Shown here: positions 24,013-33,049 of the stretch, one piece after another
Numbering within the stretch: the stretch's first letter is position 1
How the letters are laid out: the number at the start of each line of letters is the position of its first letter
The notes under the pieces: model-generated
Seen by the model: the letters and a program-made list of their open reading frames with translations, nothing else
What the model was told of the DNA's origin: nothing
Databases searched by the model: none
Assembly (NCBI RefSeq): GCF_021401245.1
Contig: NZ_JACBFY010000005.1
Span: 124,001 to 188,000, forward strand
Length of the DNA stretch: 64,000 nt
DNA from: Pseudacidovorax sp. NFM-22
Lineage (GTDB): Bacteria; Pseudomonadota; Gammaproteobacteria; Burkholderiales; Burkholderiaceae_C
Reading direction: 5' to 3'
Program-made: the position numbers and the translations under genes

Positions 24013-24402
24013 TCAGCGCCGCGCCACGAAGTCGATCTCCACCCGCGCGCCCCTGGCCAGCCCGGTCACGCCCACGCAGGTGCGCGCCGGCAGGCGGCGG
24101 GGCGGGAAGTGGCTGCGGTAGGCCTCGTTCATGCGCGCGTAGTCCTCGTCGAAGTGGGTCAGGAAGATGCGGGCCGACAGCACGTGGGCCAGGCCCAGGC
24201 CGCAGCCTTCGAGCACCGTCTTCAGATTGGCCATCACCGCATGGGTCTGGGCCTCGATGCCCTCGGGATAGCCGCTGTCCAGGTCCGTGCCGGTGAAGGG
24301 CATCTGGCCCGTCACGAAGACCCAGCCGTCGCATTCGACGGCGTGGCTGAAGGGCGCGACCGGGTCCGGTGCGCCGCTGATCATGTGGAAGATGGGGTTC
24401 AT
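24013..24402 (-). CDS. RidA/YjgF-family enamine/imine deaminase-like protein
   Basis: 129 residues, the usual length. Family features are FVTGQMPFTG, GIEAQTHAVMANLKTVLEG, and FPPRRLPARTCVGV near the C terminus with the arginine that binds substrate carboxylate in RidA. It hydrolyses reactive enamine/imine intermediates or, in catabolic clusters, related ring-opened products. A good AGGAG precedes the ATG. It is divergent from the AraC-amidase fusion and may share its promoter region, suggesting a role in the same amide or amino-acid catabolism. Confidence 0.92.
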   Translation of the reverse strand: MNPIFHMISGAPDPVAPFSHAVECDGWVFVTGQMPFTGTDLDSGYPEGIEAQTHAVMANLKTVLEGCGLGLAHVLSARIFLTHFDEDYARMNEAYRSHFPPRRLPARTCVGVTGLARGARVEIDFVARR

Positions 24403-24534
24403 GGGTCAGGCTCCTGAAAGTGAGTCGATAGAGGGAAGAGAAGGGATGGCGTGCCCGCACGGTGGAAGGCCGGCGCCAGGGTGCGTGGCATGTGTCTTGC
24501 GACGCGGTCCCGTTGCCTTGCAGGGATCCCGACG

Positions 24535-26925
24535 TTGCAGCTCGAACAGTTCACGACCGAGTCCTACCCGGTGCACCAGCGCCCGCAGGCGTGGCGGGCC
24601 GCACTCGAGCCGCACCAGCTTCGCGCCTGCGAGACGCCTTCGGCCGCGCCGCTGCATGGCCGGCTGGCCGCGGCACGGACGGCGCGCGGGGTCGGCCTGG
24701 CGCGCGTGGCTTCGTCGCCGCAGACGCTGGAGCCCCTGCACGGCGACGCGGGCCATGTGTGGATCGCGCTGCTGCAGGCCGGCCAGGCGCATCTGCAGCC
24801 CGGCGACGGCCAGCCAGCCCTCGCCCTCGCCGCGGGCGACGTGGTGTGGGGCGCCACGCGCAGCGCGGCGCAGCTGGTGTTCCAGACGGACTTCCGCCAG
24901 TTCCACGTCTCGCTGCCTGCGCGCGCCTTCCCCGCCGGCCTGCGCGGCGCCCAGGGCACGGCCCTGGGCCACCTGCCCGGGCGCAGCGGCATGGGCCGCC
25001 TGCTGGCCGGCACCCTGGGCGCGCTGGAGGACGCCCTCGACAGCCTGGGCGACGACGACATCGCGCCGCTGGAGCATTCGCTGTCCGAGCTCATCGCCGC
25101 CCGCATGGCCGCGCGGCCCGACGATGCCCCCGCCGGCATCAGTAGCACCCAGGCCGCCACGCTGCGGCGCGTGTGCCAGTTCATCGAAGGGGCGCTGAGC
25201 GATTCCGCGCTCTCGCTGGCGGCCGTGGCGGCGCAGGAGCGCGTCTCCGAGCGCCTGGTGCAGAAGCTCTTCGAAGGCCAGGGCCTGACCTTCACCACCT
25301 ACCTGCGCCAGCGCCGGCTGGAGCGCTGCCGCGCCGACCTGGCCAACCGGCAGTACGGCCATCTGTCGATCTCGGACATCTGCTTCCGCTGGGGCTTCAA
25401 CGACGCGGCCCATTTCAGCCATGCCTTCCGCGACCGCTACCGCATGTCGCCACGGCAGTACCGGCAGCAGGCCAACGAGGCCAGCCAGCAGAGCCTGCGC
25501 AAGCGCATCCAGCGCGGCTGGCCCTCGGGCTATTTCGAATCCGGCGGCCGGCCCGAGCCGCAGGCCGATGCGCCGCGCGGCACGACCGCCGGCCACGCCA
25601 GCGTACAGGCACCGGCCCATTCCGCCGCAGCCGGGCCGACCGGCCGCCACCACCACCTGCCGGCCACGCCCGAGACCATCCACTGGGGCTACTTCAGCCG
25701 CACCATCCCGCCGGTGCTCACCGTGGCTTCGGGCGACATCGTGACCATCGAGACGCTGACCCAGCATGCCTACGACGACCACGAGCGCATGATCAAGGGC
25801 GACTCGGGTGCCGAGCGCGTCTTCCACTGGACGCGCGAGCACAAGGCGGTGGACCGGCGCGGCGCCGGCCCCACCGACGCCTCGATCTACGGCCGCGGCA
25901 ATGGCGAAGGCTTCGGCGTGCACATCTGCACCGGCCCCGTGGCGGTGCAGGGGGCCGAGCCGGGCGACGTGCTGGAGGTGCGCATCCTCGACCTGGCGCC
26001 GCGCCTGGCCGCCAATGCGCGCTACGAGGGCCGCGCCTTCGGCAGCAATGCGGCCGCGTGGTGGGGCTTCCATTACGACGACCTGATCGAGGAGCCCAAG
26101 CCGCGCGAGGTCATCACCATCTACGAGGTGGACTGCCACCCCGAGCGCATGTGCGCCCATGCCGTCTACAACTTCCGCTGGACGCCGCAGCGCGATCCGC
26201 ACGGCGTGCTGCACACCACCATCGACTATCCGGGCGTGCCCATCGACCGCAGCGCCATCGTCGAGAACCACGGCGTGCTGGAGGGCGTGAAGATCCCGGT
26301 GCGGCCGCACTTCGGCGTCATCGCGCTGGCGCCGGCCGAGACGGGGCTGGTGGATTCGATCCCGCCCTCCTCCTTCGGCGGCAACCTCGACAACTGGCGC
26401 ATCGCCAAGGGCGCCACGGTGTACCTGCGGGTGGCGGTGGACGGCGGCCTGCTGTCGGTGGGCGACCCGCATGCCTCGCAGGGCGACAGCGAGCTGTGCG
26501 GCACCGCCATCGAATGCTCGCTGACCGGCGTGTTCCAGCTCGTCCTGCACAAGGCCAAGGACCTGCGCGATGAGCCCTACGCCGACATCGACTACCCGCT
26601 GGTCGAGACGGCCGACGAATGGGTGCTGCACGGCTTCTCGCATCCCAACTACCTGCAGGAGTTCGGCGACCGGGCGCGCAGCCTGGTGTACGAGAAGTCC
26701 TCGCTCGACCCGGCCATGCGCGACGCCTTCCGCAAGACGCGGCGCTTTCTCATGACGGCCATGGGGCTGACGGAGGACGAGGCGATCTCGCTGATGTCGG
26801 TCGCCGTGGACTTCGGCGTGACGCAGGTGGTGGACGGCAACTGGGGCGTCCATGCCGTGATCCGCAAGGCCCTGTTCGCGGAACGGCTGGCGAAGGCCCG
26901 AGCCAGCGCCGCTTCCGGCCCCTGA
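24535..26925 (+). CDS. AraC-type regulator fused to acetamidase/formamidase
   Basis: 796 residues from a TTG at 24535 with AGGGA upstream; GTG 24451 (AAGGGA upstream) and ATG 24490 are alternatives, but the added residues are Arg/Cys rich and look non-coding. Residues 1-195 form an AraC-binding-like sensor domain (ESYPVHQRPQAWRAALEPHQ). Residues about 208-320 are an AraC helix-turn-helix pair (LSLAAVAAQERVSERLVQKL; LSISDICFRWGFNDAAHFSH; MSPRQYRQQ). After a 50-residue linker, residues 372-790 are a full acetamidase/formamidase (HHHLPATPETIHWGYFSRTI, SVGDPHASQGDSELCGTAIE, DFGVTQVVDGNWGVHAVIRK). The frame is continuous with no stop or frameshift. It probably both binds DNA and hydrolyses or senses a short amide. 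Confidence 0.88.
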   Translation: MQLEQFTTESYPVHQRPQAWRAALEPHQLRACETPSAAPLHGRLAAARTARGVGLARVASSPQTLEPLHGDAGHVWIALLQAGQAHLQPGDGQPALALAAGDVVWGATRSAAQLVFQTDFRQFHVSLPARAFPAGLRGAQGTALGHLPGRSGMGRLLAGTLGALEDALDSLGDDDIAPLEHSLSELIAARMAARPDDAPAGISSTQAATLRRVCQFIEGALSDSALSLAAVAAQERVSERLVQKLFEGQGLTFTTYLRQRRLERCRADLANRQYGHLSISDICFRWGFNDAAHFSHAFRDRYRMSPRQYRQQANEASQQSLRKRIQRGWPSGYFESGGRPEPQADAPRGTTAGHASVQAPAHSAAAGPTGRHHHLPATPETIHWGYFSRTIPPVLTVASGDIVTIETLTQHAYDDHERMIKGDSGAERVFHWTREHKAVDRRGAGPTDASIYGRGNGEGFGVHICTGPVAVQGAEPGDVLEVRILDLAPRLAANARYEGRAFGSNAAAWWGFHYDDLIEEPKPREVITIYEVDCHPERMCAHAVYNFRWTPQRDPHGVLHTTIDYPGVPIDRSAIVENHGVLEGVKIPVRPHFGVIALAPAETGLVDSIPPSSFGGNLDNWRIAKGATVYLRVAVDGGLLSVGDPHASQGDSELCGTAIECSLTGVFQLVLHKAKDLRDEPYADIDYPLVETADEWVLHGFSHPNYLQEFGDRARSLVYEKSSLDPAMRDAFRKTRRFLMTAMGLTEDEAISLMSVAVDFGVTQVVDGNWGVHAVIRKALFAERLAKARASAASGP

Positions 26926-26953: not shown

Positions 26954-28192
26954 TCAGCGCGGCCCGAAGACGCACTTGCGGATGGACCCGTGCACGCCCC
27001 AGTTGCCGTCCACCACCTGCGTCACACCGAAGTCGGCCGCCACGGACATGAGGGCGATGGCCTCGTCCTCGCTGAGCTTGTGCACCGTCATCAGGAAGCG
27101 CCGCAGCTTGCGGAAGGCATCGCGCATGGCCGGGTCGAGCGAGGCGGTCTCCGCCACCGTGGTCTGGCCCTCGGGGCCCAGCGTCGCCAGGTAGTTGGCA
27201 TAGGTGAAGCCGTACACCGACCACAGCTCGTCGGTCTCCAGCAGCGGATGGTCCAGGCCTTCGAGCAGGGTTCCGGGCAGGTCGGCCTTCTTGTGCAGCA
27301 CCAGCTCGAACTCGCCCGTCAGCGAGCATTCGATGGCCGTGCCGCCGAGTTCGCTGTCGCCCTGGGCCGCGTGTGGGTCGCCCACCGAGAAGTAGGCGCC
27401 GGCCACTGCCACGGGGTAGTACATGCGCGCGCCCTTGCCCACGCGCCAGTCGTCGATGTTGCCGCCGCTGTAGCTGGGCGGAATGGAGCTGACGAAGTCG
27501 GCCTCGGCCGGGGCCAGCCCCATGGTGCCGAAGTGCAGCCGGGCCGGCACCTGCACGTTGCGCAGGATGTCCTCGCGCCGGCGCACCGTGGCCGGGTCCA
27601 CCTTCACGCCGGGATAGTCGATGGTGGGATGCACCACGCCGTCGGGGTCGGTCTGCGGCGTCCACACGTAGTTGTAGACGGCGCGTGCCGTGGGCTCGGC
27701 GGTGGTGTCCAGCTCGAAGATGGTGATCACCTCGCGCGGCTTGGGCTCCTCGATCAGGTCGCGGTACTGGAAGCCCCAGGAGGCCGCCGCGTTGGAGCCG
27801 AAGCTGCGGCCCAGGAAGGCATGGTTGCAGCTGGGGCGCGGCATCACGTCGAGGATGCGCACCTCCAGCACGTCGCCCGGCTCGGCGCCTTCCACCACCA
27901 CCGGCCCGGTCAGCAGGTGCACACCCACGCCCTCGCCTTCGCCGTAGGTGAAGGGGCCGGTGGTGGGCCCGGCGCCACGGCGCGGCACGGCCTTGTGCTC
28001 GCAGGTCCAGGCGAACACCGACTCGGCGCCCGGGTCGCCGGCCACCATGCGCTCGTGGTCGTCGTTGGCATGGTGGGTCAGCGTCTCGATGGTGACGCGG
28101 TCGCCCGAGCGCACCGTGAGCGCAGGCGCCACGGCCTTGCTGAAGTAACCCCAGTGCACCGTTTGGGGAGAGACACGGAGAAGGTGATGCAT
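26954..28192 (-). CDS. acetamidase/formamidase family enzyme
   Basis: 412 residues covering the whole FmdA/AmdA family domain, with no N-terminal regulator. Shared segments with the fused paralogue include TVHWGYFSKAVAPALTVRSG, FSVGDPHAAQGDSELGGTAI and DFGVTQVVDGNWGVHGSIRK. The enzyme would release ammonia and a short acid from an amide in the cytosol. It starts 34 nt after the stop of the fused ABC permease-ATPase and is the last gene of that operon, so its amide substrate is probably what the transporter imports. It is tail to tail with the AraC fusion. Confidence 0.93.
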   Translation of the reverse strand: MHHLLRVSPQTVHWGYFSKAVAPALTVRSGDRVTIETLTHHANDDHERMVAGDPGAESVFAWTCEHKAVPRRGAGPTTGPFTYGEGEGVGVHLLTGPVVVEGAEPGDVLEVRILDVMPRPSCNHAFLGRSFGSNAAASWGFQYRDLIEEPKPREVITIFELDTTAEPTARAVYNYVWTPQTDPDGVVHPTIDYPGVKVDPATVRRREDILRNVQVPARLHFGTMGLAPAEADFVSSIPPSYSGGNIDDWRVGKGARMYYPVAVAGAYFSVGDPHAAQGDSELGGTAIECSLTGEFELVLHKKADLPGTLLEGLDHPLLETDELWSVYGFTYANYLATLGPEGQTTVAETASLDPAMRDAFRKLRRFLMTVHKLSEDEAIALMSVAADFGVTQVVDGNWGVHGSIRKCVFGPR

Positions 28193-28226: not shown

Positions 28227-29822
28227 TCAGCGCTCGGCCGCCATCACGTTGAGGAAGCGGGCCGTCTGCGGATGCTGCGGCCGGGTGAGGACCTCGCGCG
28301 CGGGCCCGCTCTCGACGATGCGGCCGCCCGCCAGGAAGACCACGCGGTCGGCCACGTCGGCCGCGAAGTGCAGCTGGTGCGTGGAGATGACCAGCGCCAG
28401 CCCGCCGTCCTGCGCCAGGGCGCGGATCACCTCCAGCACCTCGTTGACCAGCGCCGGGTCGAGCGCGGAGATGGGCTCGTCCATCAGCAGCACGCGCGGC
28501 CCGGGCGCGATGGCCCGTGCGATGGCGACGCGCTGCTGCTGGCCGCCCGACAGGTGCCGCGGCAGCGCATCGGCGCGGTGCGACAGGCCCACGCGTGCCA
28601 GCAGCTCGCGCGCCCGCCGTTCGGCCCGCTCGGCCGTCCAGCCATGCACCCAGCGCAGCGGCCCGGCGATGTTCTCGAGCGCCGACAGATGCGCGAACAG
28701 GTTGAACTGCTGGAACACCATGCCCACGCCCACCCGCGCCCGCTCGCGGGCCAGGTCGGCCGGGCTCATGCGCTCGCCGCCGGCCTGGTAGCCCAGGCGC
28801 TGGCCATCGACCACGATGTGGCCGGCGTCCCAGTCCTCCAGGTGGCTGATGCAGCGCAGCAGCGTGCTCTTGCCCGAGCCGCTGGGGCCCAGCAGGGCCA
28901 CCACCTCGCCAACGGCCACGTCGAGCGCCAGGTCGGCCAGGACCGTCTGCCCGCCGTAGGTCTTGCTGAGCCCACTCACGCGGACCACGGTCGGCGCCTC
29001 GGCCAGGACGGCTGCGCGTTCGGCGCGGGCGGCGTCCGAGGCGGCCGCGGCGCCGGTGGTCGTGCGCGGACTTTCATCGTCATGCACGACTGACAGCTCC
29101 GGGGCCGGCGTGGCCGCGAGCACCGGCGCGCGCCGCCAGGGCAGCCAGCGCGCCAGGCCCTGCAGCGTGGCCTGCCGGTCGAGGTCGAAGCGTGCCTCCA
29201 GGCACAGCTGCACCAGGCTGATGCCGCCGGTCAGCACCAGGTACAGCAGGCCCGAGGCGAAGAAGACGGAGAAGAAGTCGAAGGTGGACGAGGCCAGCTG
29301 CGTGCTGCGCAGCGTCAGCTCCTGCACCGCGATGACCGAGGCGAGCGACGAGTTCTTGAGCGTGCTCACCGCCTCGTTGCCCATGGCCGGCAGCATGGCG
29401 CGCAGGGCCTGCGGCGCGATGATGCGGCGCATGAGCATGCGCGGCGTCAGGCCCAGGGCCTGGCCGGCCAGCACCTGGCCGCGCTCCACGCCCAGCACGC
29501 CAGAGCGCACCATCTCGGCGATGAAGGTGGCCTCGTTGAAGGCCAGCGCCAGCCCGGCGGCCACCAGGCCCGGCATGCGGATGCCCACATGCGGCAGGGC
29601 GTCGTAGAAGAACACCATCTGCAGGATCAGCGGCGTACCGCGGAAGATCACCGCATAGGCGCGGGCGAAGGCGGCCAGCGGGCGGAACCGGCTGAGCTGC
29701 ATCGCCGCCAGCAGCAGCCCGATCAGGGCACCGCCGGCCAAGCCGATGCCTGTTGCCGCGAGCGTGAATCCGATGCCCCACAGCAGGTAGGGCATCGTCA
29801 GGTAATGAAGAAACAGGTCCAT
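28227..29822 (-). CDS. amino-acid ABC importer, permease and ATPase fused
   Basis: 531 residues. Residues 1-215 are a HisMQ/GlnP-type permease with about five membrane helices, the segment FRGTPLILQMVFFY and an EAA loop near 111-140 (GQALGLTPRMLMRRIIAPQA). A Pro/Ala-rich linker of about 65 residues leads to a GlnQ-type ATPase: Walker A GPSGSGKS (312-319), Q loop VFQQFNLFAHL, signature LSGGQQQR, Walker B VLLMDEP, and ISTHQ for the switch histidine. These functions are usually two genes. It lies between the binding-protein gene and the amidase gene in one operon. A homodimer would form a complete translocator. Confidence 0.92.
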   Translation of the reverse strand: MDLFLHYLTMPYLLWGIGFTLAATGIGLAGGALIGLLLAAMQLSRFRPLAAFARAYAVIFRGTPLILQMVFFYDALPHVGIRMPGLVAAGLALAFNEATFIAEMVRSGVLGVERGQVLAGQALGLTPRMLMRRIIAPQALRAMLPAMGNEAVSTLKNSSLASVIAVQELTLRSTQLASSTFDFFSVFFASGLLYLVLTGGISLVQLCLEARFDLDRQATLQGLARWLPWRRAPVLAATPAPELSVVHDDESPRTTTGAAAASDAARAERAAVLAEAPTVVRVSGLSKTYGGQTVLADLALDVAVGEVVALLGPSGSGKSTLLRCISHLEDWDAGHIVVDGQRLGYQAGGERMSPADLARERARVGVGMVFQQFNLFAHLSALENIAGPLRWVHGWTAERAERRARELLARVGLSHRADALPRHLSGGQQQRVAIARAIAPGPRVLLMDEPISALDPALVNEVLEVIRALAQDGGLALVISTHQLHFAADVADRVVFLAGGRIVESGPAREVLTRPQHPQTARFLNVMAAER

Positions 29823-29866: not shown

Positions 29867-30799
29867 TCACTTGGCCAGGACCAGGCGCGGGGCTTCGAGG
29901 TTCTCGACCGGCAGGCCGTTCTTCTTGAGCATCTCGGTGTGCGCGCCGGACTTCTGCAGCGCCACCAGCGCGGCCATCACGGCATCGCGGAAGTCGGTCT
30001 TGCCCTTGGGCACGGCGATGCCCACCGAGTACGGAATGGTCACGGCCAGGGCCTTCTCCAGCTTGTCCGGGTAGGCCTTGACGGCGCTGTCGACCGTGTT
30101 GACGTCGTTGATGTAGGTGTCGGCGCGGCCGGCCAGGATGGCCTGGATGCAGTTCTGGTTGTTGTCGTAGAGCTGGATCTGCGGCTCGGGCTTGCCGGCG
30201 GCCTTGCACTGCGCGGCCAGGGCCTGGATCAGCGGCACCTCCACATAACCCGTGTTCTCGGCCGCGACGGTGCCGCACAGCGAGGTGTCGATGCCGGTGA
30301 TCTTCTTGGGATTGCCCTTGGCCACCAGCACGCCGTCGAACACCTTGGAGTAGGTGATGAAGTCGGCCGCCTTGGCACGCTCCTCGGTGGCGTAGATGTC
30401 GGAGATGACGATGTCGGCCTGGCCCGACTGCAGGGTGGTGAGCAGCGCCGCGAAGGTCACGGGCTTGTAGCTGATCTTGAAGCCCAGGCAGGCGCCGATC
30501 GTCTCGCCCAGGTCGATGTCGAAGCCGATGTAGCGCTCGGGGTTCTTGGGGTCGATGGTCTCGTAGCCGGGCGTGTGCGGATTGATGGCGTTGACCAGCG
30601 TCTTGCCCTTGAACTGCGGGTACTTGGCCTGCAGCGCCGCGCATTCGCTGGGCGTGGGAAAGACCTCGGCATGGGCCGCGCCGACGGCACCCAGCGCCAG
30701 GGCGACGGTGCCCAGGGCAGTGGCCAGCAGGCGGCGCAGACGCATCGGCCAGGCATGGCGGGACGGGCGCTGGCCCGGGACGACGAGGGGGCTGTTCAT
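29867..30799 (-). CDS. amino-acid-type ABC importer periplasmic binding protein
   Basis: 310 residues from the ATG at 30799, which has AGGAG upstream; an ATG at 30745 lacks one. The signal peptide ends AHAEV. The family-3 binding-protein signature is YIGFDIDLGETIGACLGF, followed by FAALLTTLQSGQADIVISDI and TEERAKAADFITYSKVF. Lobe 2 contains YDNNQNCIQAILAGRADTYI. This family binds polar amino acids, opines and related amides. It begins the three-gene operon binding protein, permease-ATPase, amidase. The 242 bp upstream should hold the promoter; nothing else was recognised there. Confidence 0.92.
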   Translation of the reverse strand: MNSPLVVPGQRPSRHAWPMRLRRLLATALGTVALALGAVGAAHAEVFPTPSECAALQAKYPQFKGKTLVNAINPHTPGYETIDPKNPERYIGFDIDLGETIGACLGFKISYKPVTFAALLTTLQSGQADIVISDIYATEERAKAADFITYSKVFDGVLVAKGNPKKITGIDTSLCGTVAAENTGYVEVPLIQALAAQCKAAGKPEPQIQLYDNNQNCIQAILAGRADTYINDVNTVDSAVKAYPDKLEKALAVTIPYSVGIAVPKGKTDFRDAVMAALVALQKSGAHTEMLKKNGLPVENLEAPRLVLAK

Positions 30800-31041
30800 G
30801 GGACGGGAACTCCTGGTGAGGCGGCCCGCCGGACCCCATGTCCGGCTTTGCTGCACCGCGTCAAACCAGTTTAGGAACGGCCTCCCGAAGGCACTTGTCT
30901 GGGAGCGCACGAGTCCTTGTGTGGGGGCCGGCGCGGCTGAACCGGCATGGATGGCGGTTCCTTGCCCGGGGACCTACCCGTTGCCGGCGGCCCTGCATCC
31001 AGCCTGCAGGCCGCTGGCGTCGAACGACGGGGCCGCCCACT

Positions 31042-32415
31042 TCATGCAACGGCGCGCACCCTGGCGGCCGACGCGGCGCCCGCCGCCGGGTGCGCCGGCC
31101 GCGCCAGCCCCAGGTGCCCGCGCAGCGTGCGGTGGGCGTACTCGCGGCGGAACAGCCCGCGGCGCTGCAGCTCGGGCACCACCAGCCGGGCGAAGTCCTC
31201 CAGCCCGTGCGGCAGCGTCGGCGCCAGGATGTTGAAGCCGTCGGCGGCCTCGTTGTGGAACCAGTGCTCCATCTGGTCGGCGATGGATTCGGGCGTGCCC
31301 ACCACGGTCCAATGCCCCCGCGCGCCGGCCACGCGCTCGTAGAGCTGGCGGATGCTCAGGCCCTCGCGCCGGGCCAGGTCGGCGAAGAGCTGCTGCCGGC
31401 TCTTCCAGCCTTCGGTCACGGGCAGGTCCTGCGGGAAGGGACCGTCCACCGGATAGGCCGACAGGTCGACGTTGCCCAGGAAGGTGGACAGCAGCCCGAC
31501 GCCCAGCACCGGGTCGATCAGCGACTGCAGCTGCTCGAACTTCTCCTGCGCCTCCTGCGCACTGCGGCCGACGAAGGGCGACAGCCCGGGCAGGATCTTG
31601 AGCGAATCCGGTGCGCGGCCATGGGCCGCAAGCCGCGCCTTCAGCCCGCGGTAGAAGGCCTGGGCCTGCTCGGGCGTCTGCTGGGCCGTGAACACCAGCT
31701 CGGCGGTCGCCGCCGCCAGGTCCTGGCCATCGTCGGAAGAGCCGGCCTGCACCACCACCGGTCGTCCCTGGGGCGAGCGCGGCGTCTGCAGGCCGCCCTG
31801 CACCCGGTAATGCGCGCCATCGACGTCCACGCGGTGCAGCTTCGCCGGATCGAAGAAGCGGTTGGCGCCGCGGTCGTGGACGAAGGCGTCGTCCTCCCAG
31901 GTGTCCCACAGGCCCTGCACGATGCGCACGTACTCGCGGGCACGCGCATAGCGCTCGGCATGCGGCAGTTGCTGGGTCAGGCCGAAGCTGCGGGCTTCGA
32001 AGTCGCTGCCGGACGTGACCAGGTTCCAGCCGCTGCGGCCGCCGCTGAGCTGGTCGAGCGTGGCGAACTTGCGCGCCAGCTGGTAGGGCGGCAGGTAGGT
32101 GGACGAGACGGTGGCCACCAGGCCGATGTGCGTGGTGGCCTGCGACAGTGCGGCCAGCGTGAGCGTGGGCTCCATCGGATACCAGAGCGCGTTGCGGGCC
32201 AGCACGTCGTCGGGACCGCCGGGCAGGCCCACGTTGTCGGCGAAGAAGATGGCATCGAACCTGGCGTCCTCGGCGATGCGTGCCCACTGCGTCAAGGACG
32301 CGATGCGGCTGGCCGCGCCGGCATCCACCCGCGGATCGCGCCATGCGGCCAGGTGGTGGCCGACGCCGAAGAAGAAGGCACCCAGGTGCAGCTGGCGGGA
32401 AGGGGAACTCGGCAT
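31042..32415 (-). CDS. LLM-class FMN-dependent monooxygenase (NtaA/SnaA/DszA type)
   Basis: 457 residues from the ATG at 32415. A bacterial-luciferase-like TIM barrel with the NtaA/DszA pattern: QLHLGAFFFGVGHHLAAWR, DAIFFADNVGLPG, LDQLSGGRSGWNLVTS, SPQGRPVVVQAGSS and the late GTPESIADQMEHWFHN. Members use FMNH2 from a separate flavin reductase to oxidise sulfones, dimethyl sulfide or chelators. It is the last gene of the metN-metI-metQ-mtnD operon, so a sulfur substrate is likely. No flavin reductase is encoded in the window. The C-terminal tail is Ala-rich. Confidence 0.92.
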   Translation of the reverse strand: MPSSPSRQLHLGAFFFGVGHHLAAWRDPRVDAGAASRIASLTQWARIAEDARFDAIFFADNVGLPGGPDDVLARNALWYPMEPTLTLAALSQATTHIGLVATVSSTYLPPYQLARKFATLDQLSGGRSGWNLVTSGSDFEARSFGLTQQLPHAERYARAREYVRIVQGLWDTWEDDAFVHDRGANRFFDPAKLHRVDVDGAHYRVQGGLQTPRSPQGRPVVVQAGSSDDGQDLAAATAELVFTAQQTPEQAQAFYRGLKARLAAHGRAPDSLKILPGLSPFVGRSAQEAQEKFEQLQSLIDPVLGVGLLSTFLGNVDLSAYPVDGPFPQDLPVTEGWKSRQQLFADLARREGLSIRQLYERVAGARGHWTVVGTPESIADQMEHWFHNEAADGFNILAPTLPHGLEDFARLVVPELQRRGLFRREYAHRTLRGHLGLARPAHPAAGAASAARVRAVA

Positions 32416-32467
32416 GGGGATGAGGGAACGGACGGATCGGAAGGAACGGCGGGACGGACGGCGGTGT

Positions 32468-33049
32468 TCACTCCGGCTCGTCGAGGGCCTGGCCATTGAG
32501 GCGGAGCAGCTGCTCGACAAAGTCGTCGAGCAGGGGCAGGCGCAGGCGCCCGGCACCGGTGGGCCGGGCCACCCAGCCTTCGGTGCCACCGAAGAGGCGC
32601 AAGGCATCGAAGTCGGGCTGCTCGCCGCCGTCGAATGCGTGGGGCATGCCGGCCGGCACGCTCACCCAGTCGCCGGCTTCGCACAGCAGGCCGATGAAGC
32701 CCTGCGCATGTCGAACATGGAACAGGCCGGTGCCCGACAGGAAGAGCCGGATCTCGGCCTCGCCGTGGGTGTGCTCCGCCAGGAAGCCGCGGCGCAGCCG
32801 GGCCCAGCCCGGATGGCCGGGCCGCAGCACGAGGCGGTCCATGCTGTGCACGTCGAGCCGCTGCCGCAGTTCGGCGAGCTCGGCCGCATAGGCGTCGCAG
32901 GCCGCCTCCAGTCCTTCGCCCACGTCCTCACGCACCGGCACCTGGCCGCTGTGCAGGCCCAGGACCGCCAGGGCGTCGGCGATGCGGTGCTCGCACACGA
33001 GGGTCTCGCCCCAGCGACCGTGCGCGTCGAAATGCACCAGCACCGCCAT
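32468..33049 (-). CDS. mtnD: acireductone dioxygenase (ARD) family protein
   Basis: 193 residues, a cupin. The metal site is HTHGEAEIRLFLSG (H-x-H-x4-E) plus the distal histidine in VPAGMPHAFDGG, and DRLVLRPGHPG precedes it. ARD oxidises acireductone in the methionine salvage pathway, giving the methionine precursor (Fe form) or an off-pathway product (Ni form). Here it sits between metQ and a monooxygenase gene, not with other salvage genes (mtnA, mtnB, mtnC are absent). It may complete salvage of an imported methylthio compound. Gaps to its neighbours are 32 and 52 nt. Confidence 0.9.
   Translation of the reverse strand: MAVLVHFDAHGRWGETLVCEHRIADALAVLGLHSGQVPVREDVGEGLEAACDAYAAELAELRQRLDVHSMDRLVLRPGHPGWARLRRGFLAEHTHGEAEIRLFLSGTGLFHVRHAQGFIGLLCEAGDWVSVPAGMPHAFDGGEQPDFDALRLFGGTEGWVARPTGAGRLRLPLLDDFVEQLLRLNGQALDEPE

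Follow-up and report, generated by a model that had tools for sequence, protein, structure and literature searches.

An AraC-type regulator fused to an acetamidase/formamidase domain, and a candidate operator that tracks it

Introduction

Why should a transcriptional regulator carry a complete amidase? This question is raised by a gene in a 64,000-nt window of Pseudacidovorax sp. NFM-22 (NZ_JACBFY010000005.1), the whole stretch of DNA analysed here; coordinates are window positions unless prefixed by a locus. The gene (24535–26925, plus strand; TTG start at 24535, TGA stop at 26923–26925) encodes a 796-aa protein in which an AraC-type regulator is joined to an acetamidase/formamidase (FmdA/AmdA) domain. 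Comparison of related loci shows the fused gene, its family, a frequent pairing with several groups of free amidases and a direct-repeat site, the candidate operator, that tracks the fusion. From these we consider it probable that an AraC activator controlling an uptake-and-amidase operon recruited the amidase as a sensor; the sensory part of this activator would now contain a complete amidase copy, probably of single origin.

The fusion is a single gene with many relatives

No stop interrupts the frame between 24451 and its terminal codon at 26923–26925. The coding sequence at 24535–26922 spans an AraC regulator and a full FmdA/AmdA domain, as the initial annotation had proposed. Pfam searches of residues 1–796 place HTH_18 at residues 232–312 (70.9 bits, cut-off 33.6) and HTH_AraC at 277–311 (30.4 bits, cut-off 26.6), which together form the double helix-turn-helix (HTH) DNA-binding domain of AraC/XylS regulators, and FmdA_AmdA (PF03069) in the C-terminal half (98 bits, gathering cut-off 27). 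An AlphaFold2 (AF2) model from 61 sequences, with a mean predicted local distance difference test (pLDDT) score of 76.9 and a predicted template modelling score (pTM) of 0.65, contains two folded halves. Foldseek pairs the C-terminal half with 3b9t, at 62% identity and a target TM-score of 0.91, and the N-terminal half with AraC-type structures, CuxR among them. Along the plus strand, an N-terminal AraC-type domain (residues 1–195; 24535–25119) is followed by the double HTH domain recognised by Pfam and Foldseek (205–316; 25147–25482), a linker with pLDDT below 50 at residues 328–368 (317–370; 25483–25644) and the FmdA/AmdA domain, assigned by Pfam and 3b9t (371–784; 25645–26886). The AraC-like sensor domain anticipated at the N terminus is beta-rich in the model, but its AraC_binding_2 match is weak (21.4 bits, under the cut-off of 27).

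At the start position, 15 aligned type-A sequences (locus types are described below) have GTG in ten cases, TTG in four and ATG in one, TTG being the codon in the window. A conserved promoter-like block at 24486–24500 falls within the stretch of open frame ahead of 24535, which supports the start there; a start at GTG 24451 was rejected because it would enclose this block.

The initial annotation had regarded such a fusion as rare and proposed a search for proteins with both domains. It is not an isolated case. A phmmer search scored 7996 candidates, 3107 of them with E ≤ 0.001, and all 120 matches listed carry both HTH_18 and FmdA_AmdA, at 57–97% identity. Some already bear automatic names that cover both domains ('AraC family transcriptional regulator with amidase-like domain'; 'Transcriptional regulator, AraC family with acetamidase/formamidase activity'). 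A scan of species genomes provided 79 loci, from the best 80 of 126 confirmed stretches, and 78 are fusions, of which three run off a contig end and one (L077) is interrupted close to the C terminus; the exception, L084, is unfused. Two of these loci, from records named Pseudacidovorax, are 97–98% identical to the window fusion. The AraC-FmdA fusion is confirmed as real and as one frame.

A candidate operator tracks the fusion

Aligning the region upstream of the operon for a solute-binding protein (SBP), an ATP-binding cassette (ABC) transporter and FmdA in type-A relatives revealed a direct repeat, ACAAG-N17-ACAAG, with its half-sites 22 bp apart. In the window this candidate operator lies ahead of the SBP-ABC-FmdA operon on the minus strand (30894–30920), where comparative alignment and matrix scans place it, and it is the sole match in the window when up to two mismatches are allowed (0.06 expected in shuffled sequence). 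The organism's own 6.4-Mb genome has no second exact match and four more at two mismatches, against none for a reversed control pattern.

We then asked how the site is distributed among loci with and without the fusion. A matrix built from nine type-A sites, read at the 99% level of 3081 background stretches from the same loci, found a site in 33 of 39 type-A, 1/1 type-A0, 8/9 type-B and 9/9 type-D loci, and in none of ten FmdA loci that lack the fusion. Refined on all types and applied before the free-amidase operon, the matrix recovered 37/39 type-A, 1/1 A0, 8/9 B, 11/13 C, 9/9 D and 2/3 other loci, a total of 68 of 74 fusion loci against 0/10 without the fusion, the refinement having used the same loci. 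This count omits six of 80 loci, two with the operon start off the contig (L018, L026) and four with no partner by our rules (L030, L047, L059, L078). The six misses are L015 and L019, which were anchored on FmdA with the operon start off the contig, L021 and L027, where a site is present just beyond the stretch scored, L062 and L082. When each type was left out in turn, the counts were 37/39 (A), 8/9 (B), 9/13 (C), 9/9 (D) and 0/10 (controls); the remaining types' sites had been chosen with the all-type matrix, a dependence from which the A-only matrix is free. Among untrained loci, a frozen matrix placed seven of eight from alphaproteobacteria above the 99% background level (7.1) and four of the eight above the background maximum (12.4). 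It also passed L111–L113 (3/3), which were fetched as likely non-fusion controls, proved to be fusions and are counted as untrained positives. The operator of L114 is the same site as that of the training locus L088 and gives no independent case.

Across all loci, 96 sites score at least 17.5, and 71 of these adjoin a solute-binding or FmdA gene. A scorable -10-like hexamer follows 36 of the 71, lying exactly 25 nt past the second ACAAG in 22 and within 23–26 nt in 32; shuffled stretches gave 18 scorable hexamers with the spacing spread out. The window has the hexamer TAAACT at 30868–30873 on the minus strand, again 25 nt after the second ACAAG. A second half-site over the -35 region is the geometry typical of AraC-type activators.

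Some of the sites found away from solute-binding and FmdA genes precede porin genes, TauD and Rieske genes or, in L063, an FMN-reductase gene. In L064, L065 and L069, at ~12.7–13.3 kb, copies of the operator stand shortly before porin genes (Porin_4 over its cut-off in L064 and L065), which suggests that outer-membrane uptake belongs to the same regulon. In L037, L041 and L047, operator-like sites precede operons with an NMT1-type binding protein, an ABC transporter or a distant FmdA (~25–28% identity).

The fused amidase half is conserved but altered

Eighty-one alignment columns are invariant (at least 97%) in both classes of free amidase, and 67 of these are retained in 97% or more of the 76 fused domains; the counts omit fusions truncated or interrupted ahead of residue 770 (L021, L077, L082, L087) and the outlying second FmdA of L034. 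The kept columns include G616-N617-D619-W621 and the core motif GDPHAxQGDxE, which reads GDPHASQGDSE in the window (residues 643–653; 26461–26493, plus strand), and Gly615, which belongs to the first of these motifs, is kept by 96%. All 91 free sequences in the alignment (65/65 and 26/26) have His at residue 410, and 70 of the 76 fused domains have Gln, including that of the window (codon 25762–25764, plus strand). Database listings repeat the pattern where the motif could be read (115/120 free, 117/120 fused), with His in 115 free and Gln in 107 fused sequences, and Gln410 is found in seven of eight alphaproteobacterial loci. The initial annotation had named loss of catalytic residues as a test of the enzyme part, and the outcome is divided. 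Catalysis by the fused half is uncertain because this otherwise invariant His is Gln in most fusions, though most core residues are kept. The formamidase equivalog NF045496 is not reached by the fusion (61.2 bits, cut-off 500).

Within the fusion, conservation is highest in the FmdA half, with a mean pairwise identity of 0.75 compared to 0.59 for the HTH domain and 0.39 for the N-terminal domain. This pattern fits a constrained ligand-binding domain with possibly altered catalysis.

Free partners, distribution and origin

In the window, a free-standing FmdA/AmdA paralogue of 412 aa, the last gene of the presumed operon, faces the fusion tail to tail (26954–28192, minus strand) and is 61% identical to it over the shared part, in agreement with the initial annotation. 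A free FmdA of more than 300 residues lies within the fetched flanks (up to 10 kb) in 72 of 77 fusion loci. The five without are L059 and L078, at contig ends, L047, with a more distant FmdA (28%), and L028 and L030, with none. The same pairing holds in 8/8 alphaproteobacterial loci, fetched from 15 plasmid records with 80% coverage, and a free FmdA adjoins all seven fusions detected when 299 family genomes were searched. The tail-to-tail order, with the partner downstream on the opposite strand, is one arrangement among others (15/73 partner records).

The free partners fall into different parts of the amidase tree, namely a cytosolic clade of ~413 residues to which the window's partner belongs (support 100), a distant clade with ~39% identity to the fusion (support 99) and a weakly held (80) group related to 3b9t, labelled twin-arginine translocation (Tat)-type from the name of 3b9t and from twin-arginine-like leaders read by eye rather than by a predictor, L096 showing none. 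The neighbourhoods differ likewise. Type A combines FmdA with a solute-binding protein and an ABC transporter, and a RidA-like gene is often present; type B has the distant FmdA, the fusion, a polysaccharide-deacetylase-family gene (PuuE-like, below the model cut-off) and another ABC system; type C has TauD, Rieske and LigB-type dioxygenase genes with the distant FmdA and the fusion; and type D has a Tat-type FmdA and the fusion. Free relatives from genomes without the fusion (L089–L097) mostly have twin-arginine-like leaders and His/Cys-rich N termini, again read by eye. One of them, L096, has neither fusion nor operator in a cluster like that of the window (solute-binding protein 68%, ABC 60%, RidA-like 48% and FmdA 63%).

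Judged by their record titles, the genome loci belong to Comamonadaceae, Burkholderiaceae, Oxalobacteraceae, Pseudomonadaceae, Alteromonadaceae and several alphaproteobacteria, to which plasmid records add rhizobia. The distribution of fusions is patchy: a search of 150 genomes from the order at 1e-60 gave matches in 11, comprising two fusions and nine free FmdA only, and among 299 genomes of the family, eight have a match, comprising seven fusions and one C-terminal fragment (G181). A C-terminal fragment at L115:6744–7664 covers fusion residues 483–788 at 76% identity with a RidA-like gene ~3 kb away, and is possibly a decaying copy. In L077:11163–13537 the fusion gene is broken into a frame of 684 residues and one of 95.

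In a quick maximum-likelihood tree of the FmdA domain (62 of 168 rows, near-copies removed), all 24 fused domains fall on one side of a single branch (Shimodaira–Hasegawa approximate likelihood-ratio test (SH-aLRT) 94), and one change is needed on the tree. This is consistent with a single fusion event, which we regard as probable. The unfused L084:9923–12950, from Thalassolituus, encodes a stand-alone protein closely related to the AraC half, with a Tat-type FmdA nearby; the AraC tree is compatible with either a pre-fusion state or a later loss (approximately unbiased (AU) test, p 0.079).

A sigma-54-like promoter precedes the regulator gene

The conserved block upstream of the fusion gene, TGGCAY-N5-TTGC, is TGGCATGTGTCTTGC in the window (24486–24500, plus strand), and we take it to be a sigma-54-like -24/-12 promoter. 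By chance, 0.35 matches are expected in window-sized DNA. With a simple score of at least 8.5 out of 10, a site is present in 63 of 80 fusion upstream regions and in 37 of 1600 length-matched random stretches. RpoN is encoded in the same genome. Seven AraC-family genes are RpoN-dependent in P. phymatum (PMC5979394), and the accessible part of that report gives no indication that a fusion is among them. We read the block as a sign of putative nitrogen control of the regulator gene in many, not all, lineages.

A model for the fusion and its rivals

Together, these observations suggest how the system could operate. Nitrogen shortage would raise the level of the fusion protein through the sigma-54 promoter in many members, including that of the window. 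The AraC half would then bind the direct repeat next to the -35 region and activate the SBP-ABC-FmdA operon, while the fused amidase half would bind the same amide as the free enzyme, or its hydrolysis product, and control the AraC half. The free FmdA would perform the bulk hydrolysis. In such a two-step circuit, the cell would begin to use an amide once it lacks nitrogen and the amide is available. That the amidase half reads the amide or product is what we infer from its shared ancestry with the partner, its conservation and the Gln410 change. The initial annotation had likewise suggested that the fusion senses and the paralogue does the bulk work; the operator counts, 68/74 with the fusion and 0/10 without, lend this strong indirect support, and ligand reading by the amidase half is the part that stays conjectural. 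More tentatively, and with slightly less than even confidence, we envisage that an AraC regulator captured the amidase once and made it a substrate sensor, perhaps largely through the His-to-Gln change, and that the lineage then stayed with amide operons while the free amidases were swapped among at least three groups, cytosolic or exported, under the same operator.

Several observations weigh against recruitment of the amidase as a sensor. The operator is tied to the fusion by co-occurrence, and the background to which its scores are compared is mostly coding DNA, with ten promoter controls. The A-only matrix finds a site in 1/13 type-C and 0/3 other F39 loci. At the highest background stretch (29.9), the refined matrix retains 31/39 type-A, 1/1 A0, 8/9 B, 0/13 C, 2/9 D and 0/3 other loci, so that for the weaker C and D sites position counts alongside score; with types left out, the same level retains 5/39 (A), 0/9 (B), 0/13 (C) and 0/9 (D). 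The frozen matrix fails on L109, and the out-of-sample loci are partly non-independent, L105 and L106 sharing one site and L111 and L112 another. The target in L108 and L110 is ambiguous because the site sits between divergent genes, and 25 of the 96 sites lie away from solute-binding and FmdA genes. The sigma-54-like site is missing in 17 of 80 loci, including 9/13 of type C, and in eight alphaproteobacterial loci, L111, L112 and L114 (L113 was unscored). Gln410 is not universal, with His retained in L027, L057 and L060–L063, in ten fused database sequences and in the one remaining alphaproteobacterial locus. In 33 type-A loci conservation is lower in the fused domain than in the free enzyme (0.78 vs 0.86). 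Finally, the AraC N-terminal domain alone could be the sensor.

The chief rival, which we consider unlikely, has the fused half as an ordinary working amidase, the AraC half regulating through its own N-terminal pocket and the two joined for co-expression or localisation only. Such a bifunctional protein would account for the 67 of 81 invariant columns kept, GDPHAxQGDxE among them, and for the presence of an N-terminal AraC-type domain. However, a second bulk-work copy looks redundant with a free amidase nearby in 72/77 loci, Gln replaces His410 in 70/76 fused and 0/91 free domains, and among the folded parts the N-terminal domain shows the least conservation (0.39).

Less likely again is that the amidase half is a structural passenger for dimerisation or stability without a catalytic role, sensing being left to the AraC N-terminal domain. 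In AraC regulators sensing is usually the task of that domain, and the AraC half can stand alone, as its close unfused relative in L084 near a Tat-type FmdA indicates, but strong conservation of the amidase core would be unexpected in a mere scaffold.

Cleavage of the linker after synthesis, leaving the halves to act as two proteins, is very improbable. Model confidence is low at linker residues 328–368 and the second half of the linker is poorly conserved (mean identity 0.17), yet no homologue split into AraC and then FmdA appeared among the loci examined, in which splits were not searched for systematically, and the frame of L113, suspected of an internal stop, proved continuous. A sequencing or assembly artefact or a chance joining of neighbours, including the frameshift near 25550–25650 that the initial annotation had named as a possible fault, is refuted by the 120/120 listed homologues with both domains and the shared architecture of 78/79 genome loci, with nothing found in its favour.

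Recruitment of the amidase as a sensor, if true, would mean that a whole metabolic enzyme became the sensor of a regulator governing its own relatives. A concrete operator, target operon and single diagnostic residue make the circuit and the enzyme-to-sensor idea directly testable, and the pairing of fusion and partner offers a route to the substrates of a large protein group annotated merely as acetamidase/formamidase.

Neighbouring genes in the window

The presumed operon lies on the minus strand and begins with the ABC solute-binding protein (SBP_bac_3; 29867–30799), followed by an amino-acid-type ABC transporter with permease and ATPase in one polypeptide (28227–29822), both identified by domain searches, and ends with the free FmdA. 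This permease-ATPase form is also annotated in a rhizobial relative. A RidA-like gene (24013–24402, minus strand; TIGR00004 92 bits, under the cut-off of 106.25) is divergent from the fusion. Upstream of the operon on the same strand is an NtaA/DmoA-family flavin mononucleotide (FMN) monooxygenase (31042–32607), which is probably unrelated, since matches stand beside other fusions at four loci only, with 23–33% identity.

Comparison with known systems

Literature searches, which left subscription journals mostly uncovered and could not query the slash in the family name, returned no paper describing an AraC-FmdA fusion. The architecture had already been noticed through automatic database names; what looks new is the wiring, with a probable single origin, swapped partners and an operator that tracks the fusion.

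The closest parallel in gene content is the fmdCABDEF cluster of Methylophilus methylotrophus, which is amide-induced and ammonia-repressed and, in the accessible text of its description, likewise brings together amidase, regulator, porin and binding-protein-dependent uptake genes (PMC10781810). The operators before porin genes in L064 and L065 match a kind of gene reported there. The regulator of that cluster is a separate putative positive regulator, and no fusion is mentioned in the same text (PMC10781810).

Our fusion resembles AraC/XylS activators of the FeaR-like kind in its double HTH and in the candidate direct-repeat site beside the -35 region. FeaR is its best NCBIfam model, at 117.7 bits and below the equivalog cut-off of 199, and the fusion differs from FeaR-like regulators in the extra 414-residue amidase domain beyond the HTH.

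Enzyme folds built into regulators are familiar from Ada, the GATase-like AraC regulators, PutA and NadR; none of these is known to use an acetamidase/formamidase domain. Compared to that family (PF03069), whose closest structure is 3b9t of Methylobacillus flagellatus, the fused domain is full-length and keeps most core residues, but it is joined to a DNA-binding regulator and in most cases carries Gln in place of His410.

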